A DNA stretch of 22,674 nt, from positions 1 through 22,674 of IMG/VR virus record IMGVR_UViG_3300027712_000159; one strand, given 5' to 3'. How positions within the stretch are numbered: position 1 is the stretch's first letter; each line of letters starts with the position of its first letter. A model generated the notes under the pieces. It was not told the DNA's origin. It ran no database searches and worked only from the letters and a program-made list of their open reading frames with translations. This document shows positions 2,223 through 22,387 of this stretch, piece after piece. Made by a program: the position numbers and the translations under genes. Origin of the DNA: a virus.

Positions 2223-2579
2223 ATGGCTAATACATCTGTCATCCGAATTGGTGGCAAGACCACGGCACTTAGTGTCACGGGTTCTGCTCACGCTGCGGTG
2301 CAGTTGACAGCTAACACAAACGATTTGATTAACTACGTTTCTTGCATGAATTTTGGTGCAGTAAGCGTAGCAATTAAATTTAGTCAGCTTTCATCTGATA
2401 CAGCGGCATTGCCCGTTGATGGAACACCTGGAGACTTTATTTTGCCTCCCCTCATGACAGTTCCTGTCGTGTTGGCGTGTCCTCCCATCGGTGGTCAATT
2501 ACCATGTTATGTGACGGCTATCGGTTCTGCCGCTGGCCCTAGCCTTGTTTACTTGACTCCCGCTGTGGATCAATCGTAA
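2223..2579 (+). CDS. Small structural-type protein of unknown function
   Basis: 118 residues. The ATG lies 2 bases after the upstream stop and has no clear ribosome site of its own, so translation is probably coupled to the preceding gene. The sequence is rich in small and beta-forming residues, with a segment FILPPLMTVPVVLACPPIGG and an end PSLVYLTPAVDQS, consistent with a beta-rich virion protein. It ends TAATG, sharing one base with the ATG of the tail-fibre gene. It sits between head genes and tail-fibre genes. Function is unknown. Confidence 0.75.
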   Translation: MANTSVIRIGGKTTALSVTGSAHAAVQLTANTNDLINYVSCMNFGAVSVAIKFSQLSSDTAALPVDGTPGDFILPPLMTVPVVLACPPIGGQLPCYVTAIGSAAGPSLVYLTPAVDQS

Positions 2580-4996
2580 TGACCAATGCCGCCAGTACCT
2601 CTACGATCAATATAGTTCCTGTTCAGGGCATCTTTGGGCCACAGCCAACATTTACGTTGGTCAGTCTCATCGGCCCTGCGGGAACTCCGTTCTACCCTAA
2701 TATCAATCCTCAGCAGTCTGGATTGAGCATTACGGCAAGCACAATTGACAGTAGCGTTATTGGCGGCATCACACCTTCTACAGGTACGTTTACAAATATT
2801 TTGACCACAACAGGTCAGATTACGACTTCTCCGACTGGCAACACAGACATTGCCAATAAGTTTTATGTTGACCAAATTGCCCAAGGTTTAAGCCCCAAGC
2901 AAGCGGTTAAATGCGGCACATCCGTTTCGATTACGTTGTCAGGTTTACAGACAATTGACGGATATACAACCTTGGCGGGTGATAGGGTTCTAGTAAAGAA
3001 TCAAAGCACATCGTCACAAAACGGCATTTACAACGCATCTGCAAGCGCATGGACTCGATCAGCGGATATGGATGTTTGGGCAGAAGTGCCAGGCGCATAC
3101 ACTGTCATCCTAAATGGTGGCCAAGCGCAGACTGCATGGGTTTCTACCTCTAGCGACACAGGCACAATTAACGTCACTCCGATTACTTTTGTGCAGTTTT
3201 CAGGCAACGGAACGTATTACGCGGGTACAGGCTTAACGCTTACCTCAAACACGTTCTCAATCACGAATACGGGCGTTACGGCCGCATCTGTGGGGTCGGC
3301 ATCTAAGACTCTGACGGCCACAGTCAACGCACAAGGTCAATTGACCGCCTTGGCAGACACAAACATCGCTATTGCCGCGACTCAGATCACATCAGGAACT
3401 ATTGATTCAGCGCGTATATCAGGTTCATATACAGGGATTACAGGCGTTGGAACGCTGACTGTGGGTACTTGGAACGCCTCGACAATCACAGTTCCTTATG
3501 GTGGTACTGGTGCAACGACATTGAGTGGTTATATTAAGGGAAATGGGACTGCTGCGTTATCGGGTCAAGCCACAATCCCTAATTCGGACATTACTGGTTT
3601 GGGGACAATGAGTACCCAAAATGCAAACAATGTTGCGATTACGGGTGGCTCAATCTCAGGCTTATCAAGTTTTATCCTAACTGGCCAAACAGGGTATGTT
3701 TACGCCAACGGATCAAGCGCGGTTACATCATCTACAACGATTCCCACAAGTGCTTTGTCGGGTAATTTTGTTAGCACGTTTTCTGCGGGAACAACGGGGT
3801 TAACGCCTAATACAAATTCAACAGGCGCTGTCACTTTAAGCGGCACATTAAATGTTGCGAATGGCGGCACAGGGGTGACTGCATCTAGTGGCGCAAACTC
3901 TGTGATGTTGCGTGATGCAAATCAAAATGTTGCTGTTAATGCAATAGACGATGCTTATACAAATTTTGCGGCTTCTGGAACAACAACCACATTAACAGTA
4001 AGTTCACCTCGTAGATATACAGTTACTGGTTCTGGTGGGCAAACATTTAAATTGCCTGATGCAACCACGTTGGTAAATGGTGCAATTTTTGAGTTTGATA
4101 ACAACCAAAGTAGCGGTGCAATTTTAGTTAATAACAATTCAAACACATTGATTGTTTCTGTGCCTAGTGGTGGCATTACCAGAGTTGATTTATTGTCAAA
4201 TTCAATAGCTGCGGGTTCATGGGACAGACACGATCTCACCCCTGCAAACGTTTCTTGGTCAACAAATACGTTAGATTACCCTGGCTCAATCACAAGCGCC
4301 ACATGGAACGGAAACGCTGTTGCGATTAACCGAGGCGGCACTAACGGAACGGCCACACCTACTTCAGGTGCTGTTGCGTATGGCACAGGAACGGCTTATG
4401 CGTTTACTGCCGCGGGTACAACAGGGCAAGTTTTAACGTCTAACGGATCGGGCGCACCAACTTGGTCAACACCCACCGCTTATGCGACTGTCACAGATGA
4501 CACGACCACTAACGCGACTCGTTATCCATTGTTTGCCGCAGCCACATCGGGAAATTTGGCCACGGAATATGTTTCCTCGACTAAATACCAATTTAACCCT
4601 TCAACGGGTTTATTGACCGCCACAGGGTTTAGTGGATCGGGTGCTAATCTGACAAGCATCCCTAATGGTGCGTTGACTAACTCAAGCATCACAATCGGCT
4701 CTACAAGCGTTTCTTTAGGCGGTACTGTCACAACCATAGCGGGACTGACTTCTGTGACCTCTACGACCTTTGTAGGGGCTTTGACGGGTAATGCTAGTTC
4801 GGCAACGACAGCAACCACCGCAACTAATGCGACGAATACAGCGATTACTGACGACACAACAACCGCGGCTGTGGTTTATCCGACTTGGGTGACCTCAACA
4901 TCGGGTAATTTGCCTCAGAAAACATCGTCAACTAAACTTCAATTTAACCCAAGCACAGGGGCTTTGACGGCCTCACAACTTGTCATTGCGCCATAA
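2579..4996 (+). CDS. Large tail-fibre-like protein with repeat modules
   Basis: 805 residues, Ser/Thr/Gly/Asn-rich and almost free of Cys. Three parts can be seen. About residues 90-215 form a globular module (ending TPITFVQFSG) with TIDGYTTLAGDRVLVKNQST, QNGIYNASASAWTRSADMD and TAWVSTSSDTG, a module I know from many phage tail-fibre proteins. The middle holds GGTG-type repeats (VPYGGTGATTLSGYIKGNGT, VANGGTGVTASSG) typical of fibrous tail proteins. The end carries two copies of a DDTTT...YP...TSGNL...SSTK.QFNPSTG.LTA unit (about residues 638-680 and 755-800). The likely role is a trimeric fibre in host recognition. The next gene, 9 bases downstream, continues the same style and has the chaperone domain this protein lacks. 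Confidence 0.8.
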   Translation: MTNAASTSTINIVPVQGIFGPQPTFTLVSLIGPAGTPFYPNINPQQSGLSITASTIDSSVIGGITPSTGTFTNILTTTGQITTSPTGNTDIANKFYVDQIAQGLSPKQAVKCGTSVSITLSGLQTIDGYTTLAGDRVLVKNQSTSSQNGIYNASASAWTRSADMDVWAEVPGAYTVILNGGQAQTAWVSTSSDTGTINVTPITFVQFSGNGTYYAGTGLTLTSNTFSITNTGVTAASVGSASKTLTATVNAQGQLTALADTNIAIAATQITSGTIDSARISGSYTGITGVGTLTVGTWNASTITVPYGGTGATTLSGYIKGNGTAALSGQATIPNSDITGLGTMSTQNANNVAITGGSISGLSSFILTGQTGYVYANGSSAVTSSTTIPTSALSGNFVSTFSAGTTGLTPNTNSTGAVTLSGTLNVANGGTGVTASSGANSVMLRDANQNVAVNAIDDAYTNFAASGTTTTLTVSSPRRYTVTGSGGQTFKLPDATTLVNGAIFEFDNNQSSGAILVNNNSNTLIVSVPSGGITRVDLLSNSIAAGSWDRHDLTPANVSWSTNTLDYPGSITSATWNGNAVAINRGGTNGTATPTSGAVAYGTGTAYAFTAAGTTGQVLTSNGSGAPTWSTPTAYATVTDDTTTNATRYPLFAAATSGNLATEYVSSTKYQFNPSTGLLTATGFSGSGANLTSIPNGALTNSSITIGSTSVSLGGTVTTIAGLTSVTSTTFVGALTGNASSATTATTATNATNTAITDDTTTAAVVYPTWVTSTSGNLPQKTSSTKLQFNPSTGALTASQLVIAP

Positions 4997-20144: not shown

Positions 20145-21062
20145 TCAAAAGTCATTTAAAACTCTCCAGGCTGTTGCGGCACAGAGTGGCACTTGTCCAT
20201 TTCCAATGGCTTTAAGTCTGTCCACTCTAGAGGCCACCCCATTAACCACTCGACCCACGTTGGGTTCAGAAGCCCACTGTTGCGGTCTACCGATTGACTC
20301 AGCATAATTTGTTTGCCAATTTTGATTCGTCTTTGTATTGACGGATTGCTCATGTTGCCCCTGTCCCGATTGTCCGATGCTTGCGGGGTCGGAAACCAAA
20401 GAACTACCGTCCCTAATCCTGGCGAATCCCTCTTGAACTCCGATGGGCTGCCTTTTTCGTTGGAATTGTGGCAAGTTGGTGTAGGCCATTTGTTGGCTAA
20501 CATTTTTTTCATTTTTGCTTTTCCATTCGTTCCCCCGTTGCCTGGTAGACAAGGTGTAGGCCAAAGTTCTTTGTTTTCCGACAATCCAGATTCTGTCCCT
20601 CTGATGGTTTGCTCCAACGTCCGCTGCTCCCAACACTCCCCATCTCGCATCAAACCCCATTGAGGCCAAGTCTCCGAGAACTCGTCCAAGTCCCCTAGAA
20701 GTGAGCATTGGTGAGTTTTCCACGAACACAAACTTGGGTCGTACTTCGTAAATGATCCTCGCCATTTGTCCCCACATTCCGCTTCGTTCTCCATCAATAC
20801 CTGCGCCTCGCCCTGCGGCTGAGATGTCTTGGCATGGAAATCCTCCAGATACGACATCAACAATTCCTCGCCACGGGTTTCCGTCAAAGGTTTGTACGTC
20901 ATCCCAAATCGGGAAAGGCGGGAGAAGTCCGTCATTTTGTCGGGCGCACAATACGCTTGCTGGGTATTGCTCCCATTCGACTGCACAGACTGTTCTCCAA
21001 CCAAGGAGGTGTCCACCAAGTATTCCTCCACCAGCGCCTGCGAAAAGAGCCAACTCATTCAT
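20145..21062 (-). CDS. DNA (cytosine-5) methyltransferase
   Basis: 305 residues starting in an ATGA overlap with the upstream gene. The C5-methyltransferase motifs are in order: I (LFAGAGGGILGG, 6-17, AdoMet site), II (VEWEQY, 28-33), IV (GGFPCQDIS, 73-81, catalytic Cys77), VI (VFVENSPML, 112-120, Glu115), VIII (HQRDRIW, 153-159) and X (LKAIGNGQVP, 283-292). Between VIII and X, where the target-recognition domain should lie, is a hydrophilic Q/N/R/S-rich stretch (about 163-265) that looks unlike a folded TRD. The enzyme probably methylates phage or host cytosines, giving protection from restriction; no partner restriction enzyme is nearby. A second long frame runs through the same DNA. Confidence 0.92.
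   Translation of the reverse strand: MNELALFAGAGGGILGGHLLGWRTVCAVEWEQYPASVLCARQNDGLLPPFPIWDDVQTFDGNPWRGIVDVVSGGFPCQDISAAGRGAGIDGERSGMWGQMARIIYEVRPKFVFVENSPMLTSRGLGRVLGDLASMGFDARWGVLGAADVGANHQRDRIWIVGKQRTLAYTLSTRQRGNEWKSKNEKNVSQQMAYTNLPQFQRKRQPIGVQEGFARIRDGSSLVSDPASIGQSGQGQHEQSVNTKTNQNWQTNYAESIGRPQQWASEPNVGRVVNGVASRVDRLKAIGNGQVPLCAATAWRVLNDF
20156..20857 (-). CDS. Candidate overlapping gene nested in the methyltransferase (WPTP-family protein)
   Basis: A 233-residue frame from the ATG at 20857, in the +1 frame of the methyltransferase and ending 11 bases before its stop. GAGGA lies 7 bases before this ATG. The frame is open further, to 21058, so about 300 codons have no stop. The product has MSYLEDFHAKTSQPQGEAQ, then YDPSLCSWKTHQCSLLGDL, ETWPQWGLMRDGECWE, WPTP at 99-102 and 124-127 plus FPTP at 155-158, and near the end LNPTWVEWLMGWPLEWTDLK. 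I recall predicted phage and bacterial proteins with this same series of motifs. Because several of these motifs are the alternative-frame image of methyltransferase motifs IV, VI, VIII and X, similarity alone does not prove translation. Function unknown. Confidence 0.5.
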   Translation of the reverse strand: MSYLEDFHAKTSQPQGEAQVLMENEAECGDKWRGSFTKYDPSLCSWKTHQCSLLGDLDEFSETWPQWGLMRDGECWEQRTLEQTIRGTESGLSENKELWPTPCLPGNGGTNGKAKMKKMLANKWPTPTCHNSNEKGSPSEFKRDSPGLGTVVLWFPTPQASDNRDRGNMSNPSIQRRIKIGKQIMLSQSVDRNSGLLNPTWVEWLMGWPLEWTDLKPLEMDKCHSVPQQPGEF

Positions 21063-21454
21063 GTTCTCCCACCATATTGTTTTTTTAATTCGGCTAATTT
21101 AGCCAACGCTTCCTGTTTCACCCGTTCGCTCTCAATCTGCTCATGAATGGTCATTTTTCGTTCAATCATCGGAACTTGTTTGACAGGAATAAATGGGCCT
21201 TGATTGCACAAATTCCTAAACTTAATTGCGCTTGGCACAAACTCACCATCTAACTTTGAAATGGCGTAATCCATGCTTGGGCGATATGTTAAAAAACCTT
21301 TAAGCTGATGCGCCCACTCCTGGCGAATCAAACTGTGGTCAACACCCTCCCAATGTCTGAGAAATGCCGCACCATAAATTGCGCTCATGCGGCCAAAGAT
21401 GTAATCCAAGCCTTGCTCAACTTCGCAAAAATCAGTTTCCGAGTAGTTTGACAT
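21059..21454 (-). CDS. Replication partner protein, lambda P / helicase-loader-like
   Basis: 131 residues from the ATG at 21454, chosen for a strong GGAGG 8 bases upstream; an earlier in-frame ATG at 21499 lacks this. The core (QGLDYIFGRMSAIYGAAFLR, HWEGVDHSLIRQEWAHQLKG, then SMDYAISKLDGEFVPSAIKF, RNLCNQ) follows the pattern of the Phage_lambda_P-type domain: a helix with aromatic residues, W-x-x-xL, and 'PxxxxFxxLC'. The C-terminal part is a charged helix ending QYGGRT. It lies directly after the O-like gene (overlap 23 bases), as P follows O in lambda. The role would be to load the host DnaB helicase. The assignment is moderate. Confidence 0.55.
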   Translation of the reverse strand: MSNYSETDFCEVEQGLDYIFGRMSAIYGAAFLRHWEGVDHSLIRQEWAHQLKGFLTYRPSMDYAISKLDGEFVPSAIKFRNLCNQGPFIPVKQVPMIERKMTIHEQIESERVKQEALAKLAELKKQYGGRT

Positions 21455-22106
21455 TGCCCTGTCCTCCAAGTAAGCCACGAGTAAGACCTGACAAAACATT
21501 AGCGTTCCGTTGGCCAGTTTTGGTTAAATTGCGTTCATCAGGTTTAATCCAGTCGGCTTGTAAGCCTTGCGAGCCTCTAGCGCACCAAATACTTAAAAAG
21601 TCGCTGAACTCCATGTTTGCCTTGGCAGCTTCTTTTCTTGCGCTGTTTACAACTGTTTCGGTCACAGGTGCTTTTTTGGCTTTGCGTAACTGTTTCCAGT
21701 CATCCCAAATTTGTTGGTCAACATCAGGAGGGCAAGCAACGCTAGTTGCGTTCTTCTCTCTCTTTGTCTCTGTCTCTAACTCTGTCTCTGTCTCTCTCTC
21801 TGGTAGATCAACTTGATATCCTTTTGATATCTTATTGATATCATCTTGTTCCAGCCAATGAGACAGCTTGATAATGATTTCTTTAGTTTTCAATTCAGTC
21901 AATCTGAGTCGAAAAGCAAGAGTTTTGTTGTCAGGGATTCGACCCTCGTTCTCACTAGCTATTAACCAAAGCATAACTAGCACTTTGGCGGCCAAGGGGT
22001 CTAATTCATGCCACTCAAGGTCATCAAGAATGTCACGATACAGCTTCACCCAAGGAGGCCGCCTGTCCTTGAAGTGCTGAAACTTTGTCCAATTTTTAAT
22101 ACGCAT
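21432..22106 (-). CDS. Phage replication protein (lambda O-like initiator)
   Basis: 224 residues. The N-terminal ~105 residues (MRIKNWTKFQHFKDRRPPWV, KLYRDILDDLEWHELDPLAA, LVMLWLIASENEGRIPD, LAFRLRLTELKTKEIIIKLS) form a winged-helix DNA-binding type domain known from phage O-like initiators. An acidic ETETELETETKREK linker (about 112-126) is followed by a helical region (IWDDWKQLRKAKKAPVTETV; FLSIWCARGSQGLQADWIKP) found in the same group. Three TTGATATC repeats and a polypurine tract lie inside the gene, as lambda's origin lies in O. There is no ribosome site close to the ATG; AGGTG lies 22 bases upstream across a hairpin, so start control appears structural. Confidence 0.75.
   Translation of the reverse strand: MRIKNWTKFQHFKDRRPPWVKLYRDILDDLEWHELDPLAAKVLVMLWLIASENEGRIPDNKTLAFRLRLTELKTKEIIIKLSHWLEQDDINKISKGYQVDLPERETETELETETKREKNATSVACPPDVDQQIWDDWKQLRKAKKAPVTETVVNSARKEAAKANMEFSDFLSIWCARGSQGLQADWIKPDERNLTKTGQRNANVLSGLTRGLLGGQGNVKLLGN
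21751..21801 (-). other. Polypurine/polypyrimidine tract inside the replication gene
   Basis: About 50 bases, nearly pure pyrimidine on the plus strand (purine on the coding strand), built from GAGACA/GAGAGA-like units and encoding the ETETELETETKREK linker. It directly adjoins the TTGATATC repeats. Such asymmetric tracts occur beside lambda's origin iterons and can unwind or form triplex DNA; a slippage-prone linker is the plainer explanation. Confidence 0.6.
21813..21842. repeat. Three exact TTGATATC direct repeats, 11-bp period (candidate iterons)
   Basis: TTGATATC occurs at 21813-21820, 21824-21831 and 21835-21842, each start exactly 11 bp after the last, so all lie on one helix face. 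Each contains the palindrome GATATC. Because 11 is not a multiple of 3, the repeats fall in different reading phases and are not explained by a protein repeat. They sit mid-way in the O-like gene, the place of lambda's origin. They may be binding sites for the initiator. Confidence 0.65.
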
Positions 22107-22127
22107 AAAAGCCCAAAAAAAAGGGCT
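22107..22127 (-). promoter_or_regulatory. Hairpin between distant ribosome site and replication-gene start
   Basis: On the minus-strand RNA AGCCC (22127-22123) pairs with GGGCU (22114-22110) across a loop of eight U, followed by UUU and the AUG at 22106. Just before the hairpin is AGGUG (22133-22129). Folding the hairpin would bring this ribosome site from 22 bases to a few bases from the AUG. The 5' arm AGCCC is also the end of the larger stem upstream, so both cannot form fully together. Confidence 0.55.
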
Positions 22128-22197
22128 ACACCTGAAGTCTCACCCTTGCGGATGTTGGCGGACTGGCGTAGTAACCAGCAGACTTCATGTGTAACCC
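22123..22197 (-). ncRNA. Structured leader RNA, three-way junction, possibly C4/P4-CI-like
   Basis: On the minus strand an 18-bp stem is formed by 22197-22180 and 22140-22123 with 16 Watson-Crick pairs, one G-U and one mismatch. It encloses two hairpins: CUGGU/GCCAG with a 6-base loop, and CAUCC-GCAA-GGGUG with a GNRA tetraloop. The fold lies between the Cro-like gene and the replication gene, and its 3' arm covers the likely ribosome site (22133-22129). The position and three-way layout recall the C4 antisense RNA / P4 CI immunity RNAs that control phage antirepressor or replication operons, but I cannot verify family membership. It overlaps a short ORF. Confidence 0.6.
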
Positions 22198-22227
22198 TAC
22201 TACATTAACACCGCCAAGTGTTTCCAT
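22126..22227 (-). CDS. 33-residue leader-like ORF over the structured RNA
   Basis: Begins with an ATG at 22227, 4 bases after the Cro-like stop, with GGAG 7 bases upstream (overlapping that stop). It encodes METLGGVNVVGLHMKSAGYY followed by ASPPTSARVRLQV and stops with TAG at 22128-22126, inside the 3' arm of the large stem and 19 bases before the replication-gene ATG. Translating ribosomes would melt the stem and stop next to AGGTG, allowing reinitiation. The peptide itself resembles nothing I know; its value may be regulatory. The ORF could also be chance. Confidence 0.4.
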   Translation of the reverse strand: METLGGVNVVGLHMKSAGYYASPPTSARVRLQV

Positions 22228-22231
22228 TATT

Positions 22232-22387
22232 TTACTCCAAAAACCAATCAGGGCGCAACACCATCAATTGATAAAGCCGCCCTGTTGGGATGGTTTTCCA
22301 GTTATGTACCGCCGCCCTGGTGATGCCCAAAATTCTTGCAAGCTCACTCTGAGAGCCAGCCAATGTGATAGCTTTTTGTTTGTCCAT
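22232..22387 (-). CDS. Cro/YdaS-like helix-turn-helix regulator
   Basis: 51 residues from the ATG at 22387 (an open frame continues upstream to 22489 but lacks a ribosome site and crosses the promoter). MDKQKAITLAGSQSELARIL and GITRAAVHNWKTIPTGRLYQ form a classic HTH (about residues 12-31), with the 'GSQxELAxxLGITRAAVxxW' signature of phage Cro / YdaS antitoxin-like proteins. No ribosome site precedes the ATG, and a TATACT box ends 6 bases before it, suggesting a leaderless mRNA. It is the first gene of the leftward early operon and faces a divergent rightward gene, so it probably represses one or both promoters in the gap. Confidence 0.82.
   Translation of the reverse strand: MDKQKAITLAGSQSELARILGITRAAVHNWKTIPTGRLYQLMVLRPDWFLE

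Follow-up and report, generated by a model that had tools for sequence, protein, structure and literature searches.

Control of early genes by phage RNA is known in principle. In plasmids of the pT181/pIP501 type, an antisense RNA controls a terminator in the leader of the rep gene. In satellite phage P4, termination is partly Rho-dependent. According to a paper on IsrK (PMC4825925), the CI RNA of P4 pairs with seqA upstream and with seqC downstream, resulting in premature termination before the replication genes. The IsrK RNA of Gifsy-1 has a short form that ends at a terminator and a long form that reads into the genes, and the short form acts in trans on the long one (PMC4825925).

In this study, we describe an RNA family and a terminator/pseudoknot layout that are new. 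The window, that is, the whole stretch of DNA analysed, is IMG/VR virus record IMGVR_UViG_3300027712_000159 (22,674 nt, positions 1 to 22,674). On its minus strand, ahead of a phage replication gene, lies an RNA element of about 108 nt (~22222 to 22115) that, judged by sequence comparison, is a member of a large structured-RNA family absent from Rfam 15. Its predicted promoter, terminator and pseudoknots are backed by sequence. We infer, and hold it on balance to be probable, that the RNA is a transcription attenuator heading the early replication genes of the phage, and it probably sets the output level of these genes.

The earlier note on this DNA had drawn a 94-nt leader (minus strand, 22197-22104) with a stem of 18 positions, one mismatch and one G-U, enclosing two hairpins, one of them with a GNRA loop. 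This fold is borne out, with a minimum free energy of -39.1 kcal/mol against a mean of -23.5 for shuffled sequences (z = -4.4), and none of the 200 shuffles was as good. The main stem P1 of the window comprises 17 pairs and one A.G mismatch, includes one G-U pair, encloses two hairpins, one with a GCAA loop, and leads directly into U8, which is above all the shape of an intrinsic terminator, a point that the note does not make. The extent given in the note (22104-22197) covers this fold and falls short at the 5' end, which lies near 22222, because the P0 hairpin and a following strand pair with the inner loops; the predicted transcript start, ~22222, is likewise upstream of 22197. AGGUG (22133-22129), U8 and GGGCU (22114-22110) lie where the note had placed them. 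From 5' to 3', the RNA consists of P0 (loop b), strand a, P1a (9 bp), a 1x1 mismatch, P1b (8 bp), P2 (loop a'), b', P3, the 3' strands of P1 and the U-tract (Table 1). Loop b (UUGGCG) pairs with b' (CGCCAA) as pseudoknot PK1, and strand a pairs with a' in the P2 loop, L2, as pseudoknot PK2. A small protein, METLGGVNVVGLHMKSAGYYASPPTSARVRLQV, that can be read through the window RNA was rejected as a conserved gene: it has no family and no tblastn match, meets an immediate stop in locus L005, and only 81 of 171 members keep a frame open over the length of the RNA.

Table 1. Predicted features of the RNA element and its neighbouring genes in the window, with the basis of each assignment.
Feature	Positions	Strand	Basis
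Predicted -10 box TAAAAT of the RNA's own promoter (start ~22222)	22229..22234	minus	Family-wide box enrichment
P0 hairpin AACAC-UUGGCG-GUGUU; loop b = 22217-22212	22207..22222	minus	Two-sided changes at 3-4 of the 5 pairs of the stem
Strand a (UGUAGUA), partner of loop L2 in PK2	22198..22204	minus	Covariation; cognate versus non-cognate pairing
P1a 5' strand (lower stem) GGGUUACAC	22189..22197	minus	Fold and covariation
P1b 5' strand (upper stem) UGAAGUCU	22180..22187	minus	1x1 defect and lower-helix length conserved across members
1x1 mismatch A22188.G22132, between P1a and P1b		minus	Conserved
P2 hairpin; loop carries a' (UACUAC, 22173-22168)	22162..22179	minus	Fold and covariation; invariant closing G-U pair
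Junction J2/3 CCGCCAA; b' = CGCCAA (22160-22155), pairs with P0 loop (PK1)	22155..22161	minus	35 of 36 altered b' compensated
P3 hairpin with GNRA loop (CAUCC-GCAA-GGGUG)	22141..22154	minus	Fold and covariation
P1b 3' strand AGACUUCA	22133..22140	minus	Covariation
P1a 3' strand GUGUAGCCC	22123..22131	minus	Covariation
U8 tract directly 3' of P1, predicted intrinsic terminator	22115..22122	minus	U-run conserved in family
GGG 3' of U8, likely ribosome-binding site of the replication gene	22112..22114	minus	GGG or GGA(G) common in family
Downstream gene: O-like phage replication initiator, first base of ATG 22106	21432..22106	minus	phrog_678 (E 1.4e-14), phrog_26426 (E 3.9e-13)
Upstream gene: Cro/YdaS-like DNA-binding protein	22232..22387	minus	PF15943 (E 4e-10), PF14549 (E 2e-9)

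Pattern scans together with a genome scan yielded at least about 240 non-identical members, mostly from IMG/VR phages with a few prophages; because sequence patterns were used to collect them, the members are more diverse than this set shows, and the counts do not separate out related sequences. The family is common to hundreds of freshwater-type or environmental phages. A near-identical RNA occupies the same place in IMG/VR relatives of the replication protein and in phage MW202462, and in many members the stem differs completely in sequence, for example AAGCCCUAG...CUAGGGCUU, with the plan unchanged. The covariance model R1 found exactly one copy in each of 32 out of 32 long phage records, and copies in 2 of 398 and 1 of 399 host genomes, counts that include the genomes used as centres; two of the host-genome copies are 17 and 25 kb from an integrase, in likely prophages. 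The window RNA matched no Rfam family at the gathering score or at E up to 10 save by chance, as with mir-87 (E 2.4), and in 11 relatives no match to the C4 model (RF01695) was found at E up to 5. Pattern matches in which the fold was absent were dropped, both in genome contigs (L203-205, L208-210, L212 and L213) and among viral sequences (L262, L263, L303 and L364). No earlier description of the family was found in the open literature that was searched, and large published candidate lists of structured phage RNAs may already include it. A plasmid origin was rejected because no plasmid match was found, and phage-plasmid partition because ParA was found in none of the 32 long phage records. A tyrosine integrase is missing from 29 of these 32 records and an S24 repressor from all 32, so that temperate life is uncertain for most. 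One contig alone, L300, has two copies (120-226 and 2449-2562, minus strand); the second has PK1 in the form UUGGUC/GACCAA, a different PK2, and a position ahead of a helicase-methylase gene.

Covariation in relatives gives strong support to the helices and to both pseudoknots, although it is unable to separate pairing in cis from pairing in trans. All but one of the 3,023 cells of a 71-sequence alignment pair, as compared with 36-50% in slid controls, with both pseudoknots included in the test, and 32 more diverse sequences show two-sided changes in all six helices, again with both pseudoknots. In a 100-sequence alignment built by a pseudoknot-blind model, in which PK1 was counted and PK2 left out owing to alignment gaps, 97.4% of cells are paired (33-46% when slid), with 617 two-sided changes against 60-102. 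Two-sided changes affect four of the six PK2 pairs in one alignment (A1) and five of six in another (A2), and a' occurs in 47 distinct sequences, with cognate strands pairing over 6.3 bp on average, versus 4.2 bp between non-cognate members. An apparent invariance of PK1 proved to be an artefact of the search patterns, since patterns that freed PK1 recovered compensated variants. The cleanest test of the analysis was a search that fixed only altered b' strands and left the upstream sequence unspecified: it returned 36 distinct RNAs, 35 of which carry a perfectly complementary altered P0 loop (UUGACG/CGUCAA in 25, UUGGAG/CUCCAA in nine and UUGGUG/CACCAA in one). At least 47 variants of PK2 and at least five of PK1 are known. 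Of 167 members, 150 retain the 1x1 mismatch and 140 have 9-10 bp below it. The proposal of a structured regulatory RNA ahead of the replication gene and just after the Cro-like gene is thereby upheld.

At least five of six positions match TATAAT close upstream of P0 in 171 of 239 members, against 34 of 239 shuffled sequences; in 141 of 167 members, four or five of the five nucleotides that follow P1 are U, and the stem with its U-run is retained in essentially all true members. Whatever the gene, 211 of 229 members have its start codon 7-15 nt (typically about 8) past the U-run. What the family shares is GGG or GGA(G) immediately 3' of the U-run, some 8 nt ahead of the start codon, and this is likely the ribosome site of the downstream gene. 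The genes behind the RNA encode replication initiators, primosomal proteins, DUF1376 proteins, ParB-like proteins, and HNH or GIY-YIG nucleases, and those in front of it are most often Cro/CI-like. Often an HNH, GIY-YIG or AP2-type nuclease gene directly follows the RNA (L043, L045, L052, L097, L131 and others), at the same 8-nt distance and with the replication gene shifted one place downstream. In MW202462 the RNA stands first in an operon that continues through the replication genes in the direction of the late genes. In a Polynucleobacter prophage (L211) a divergent HTH repressor gene precedes it, and its promoter lies among several AACAA/TTGTT inverted repeats (~3030-3105), probably operators of that repressor.

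The same slot can be occupied by other RNAs. Among 80 replication-gene loci, 42 have an RNA of the window type, 20 have an RNA resembling int-alpA, one has a third type, and 17 have neither or a truncated end. The int-alpA-like RNAs match RF02996 below threshold (31.6 versus 35.8 bits) and lie just upstream of the replication gene (L020, L029, L030, L032, L033, L042, L044 and others); as in C4, their loop complements the replication-gene leader just downstream, mostly over 6-7 nt compared with a non-cognate mean of 4.7. That two unrelated RNAs can stand in for each other in this slot is an argument for a regulatory role of both on the same gene. The third type, in L039 (~1380-1490), consists of two hairpins with complementary loops (GGACAAG and CUUGUCC) followed by a U-run, and has no Rfam match at E up to 5. 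Elsewhere in the window, two fully overlapping 300-aa frames on the minus strand (20148-21062 and 20159-21058) form a dual-coded gene pair, one frame encoding a C5 cytosine DNA methylase by its match to PF00145 (E 6e-32), the other likewise matching a phage family, phrog_1008 (E 4.7e-31), and having relatives in 35 phage records.

The geometry of PK2 bears on how such an RNA could switch. Strand a directly adjoins P1 or shares its first nucleotide: 132 of 167 members have a spacing of -1 to +1 nt and none has a larger positive one, while a' is located in the loop beyond P1 and P2. A distance of about 23 bp is unbridgeable by 0-1 nt, so a single molecule should be unable to hold both a complete P1 and PK2. 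The stable stem and U-tract of an intrinsic terminator would thus face an alternative structure incompatible with it on steric grounds, and the stacking energies of the two are of the same order (-17.1 kcal/mol for P1a and -22.1 for PK1 plus PK2, loop penalties ignored). A two-state switch, as the earlier note suggested, is plausible. All pseudoknot halves would be transcribed before the 3' strand of P1. Were they to pair in cis, the lower nine base pairs of P1 would be blocked and RNA polymerase would read into the gene; were they kept apart, P1 would close and transcription would stop at U8, releasing an RNA of about 108 nt with the antisense loops a' and b' exposed. The likeliest separating agent would be another, already released copy of the RNA that pairs in trans with the 5' end of the growing transcript; a protein or ligand could also keep the halves apart. 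Pairing in trans would hold down expression of the replication genes or shut out a related phage, as with the P4 CI RNA.

That the terminated RNA acts in trans on the next transcript is a hypothesis we put forward tentatively, as possible though not probable. Rather doubtful, in our estimate, is an attenuator that recognises itself, in which the terminated leader inhibits fresh leader copies in trans and the PK1 and PK2 sequences serve as an identity code; it would, if true, amount to replication feedback by RNA alone and to RNA-coded exclusion groups among phages. The two copies in L300, which differ in both codes, fit such a scheme. PK1 varies little, however, and this counts against action in trans, where a code might be expected to show variation in both pairs. 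In L211, the promoter amid the AACAA/TTGTT repeats and the divergent HTH repressor suggest that the RNA may be silent in the lysogen, and this would weaken a role in prophage immunity. With integrase and S24 repressor missing from most of the 32 long records, the role of the RNA may be in immunity, timing or copy control.

A compact core could also be read as the binding site of a ligand, or of a phage or host protein, that decides between read-through and termination with no RNA acting in trans. The invariant nucleotides of the 100-sequence alignment (CCGCCAA, UCU/AGA and the G-U pair closing P2) would suit such control, as would the free drift of PK2 around a fixed core, with the terminator as expression platform. 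We nonetheless regard it as unlikely, because the RNA is nearly confined to phages and prophages, stands ahead of unrelated phage genes rather than metabolic genes, and has a genomic context that points to no ligand; a metabolite riboswitch would be tied to one metabolic pathway in cellular genomes, whereas only phage genes follow this RNA and host genomes seldom carry it (2/398 and 1/399). Somewhat more improbable is a stand-alone small RNA directed at another target (a host RNA, a protein or RNA polymerase), the downstream gene being merely next in the early operon. Its own promoter and terminator, the single copy in each of the 32 phage records and the variety of downstream genes all agree with that picture, but not the start codon fixed behind the U-run, nor the internal covariation of a with a' and b with b', which an external target leaves unexplained.

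The translational switch of the earlier note, in which one fold hides AGGUG and the other brings it close to the AUG through a hairpin of AGCCC and GGGCU across U8, appears very improbable. Both sequences are present in the window, and the hairpin on the GGG side reaches 4 bp or more in 81% of the subfamily to which the window belongs, compared with 21% when the downstream sequence is shuffled, and changes in step in L142 and L188; a hairpin of this type is present in 40% of the divergent members. Yet its pairing is equal between cognate (4.3 bp) and non-cognate (4.2 bp) partners, and the enrichment may merely reflect the GGG ribosome site. AGGUG itself is altered in L217 (AGUUG) and absent from the divergent members, which have a different stem and keep, like all true members, the stem and U-run. 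Taking it for the only plausible ribosome site therefore fails across the family, in which the GGG or GGA(G) after the U-run is better placed. Hardly credible to us is a cis-acting antitermination signal like put of HK022, by which the folded RNA would make RNA polymerase ignore its own terminator and later ones in the early operon. In MW202462 the 5' end of the operon that leads through replication towards late genes is occupied by the RNA, as the corresponding place in lambda is by nutR/tR1; each genome has only one copy, however, while HK022 has one put site per early arm, and the covariation links the pseudoknots to the terminator stem, not to a separate signal.

As a putative attenuator, the RNA would add to phage regulation a marked control point of replication genes, in hundreds of environmental phages that mostly have no recognisable integrase or S24-type repressor. 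The pseudoknots, terminator and gene start are so regular that the mechanism is testable with a single synthetic leader. Should the short RNA act in trans, RNA-coded immunity of the P4 kind would be common and not the curiosity of one satellite phage, and the sequence code could predict exclusion between phages.

Among the described systems, the P4 CI RNA is nearest in function. There too, antisense segments of a phage RNA are complementary to an upstream part of the same transcript, and replication genes lie downstream (PMC4825925). A seqA-like upstream complement is present in the window RNA, where a:a' and b:b' covary, and no seqC-like complement was found in the 60 nt downstream that were tested; the comparison with P4 drawn in the earlier note thus holds for the architecture only. 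The window RNA differs further in making its terminator from the antisense domain's own stem, in using two separate pairings (PK1 and PK2) and in having no Rfam match. With the C4 antisense RNA (RF01695; phages P1 and P7) it has in common a stem enclosing hairpins, short antisense segments a' and b', and a place in the phage early region. The kinship with C4 that had been suggested is not supported, with no cmscan match to RF01695 at E up to 10 and no complementary downstream target: L2 pairs with the 60 nt downstream over 4.12 bp in cognate, 4.09 in non-cognate and 4.43 in shuffled combinations. The complement of the window RNA lies upstream instead of downstream, and its own U-tract follows. 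The int-alpA RNA (RF02996), whose sub-threshold relatives fill the same slot in 20 of the 80 loci, differs in stem and conserved bases, and its model does not match the window RNA. IsrK sets a precedent, being a prophage RNA of which the short form acts on the form that reads through; it shares no sequence or model match with the window RNA and activates translation, whereas the window RNA is proposed to act at transcription termination. The pT181/pIP501 type resembles the window RNA in that an RNA controls a terminator in a replication-gene leader, but there the controlling RNA is a separate countertranscript, whereas the window RNA carries both complementary halves itself, on a single strand.
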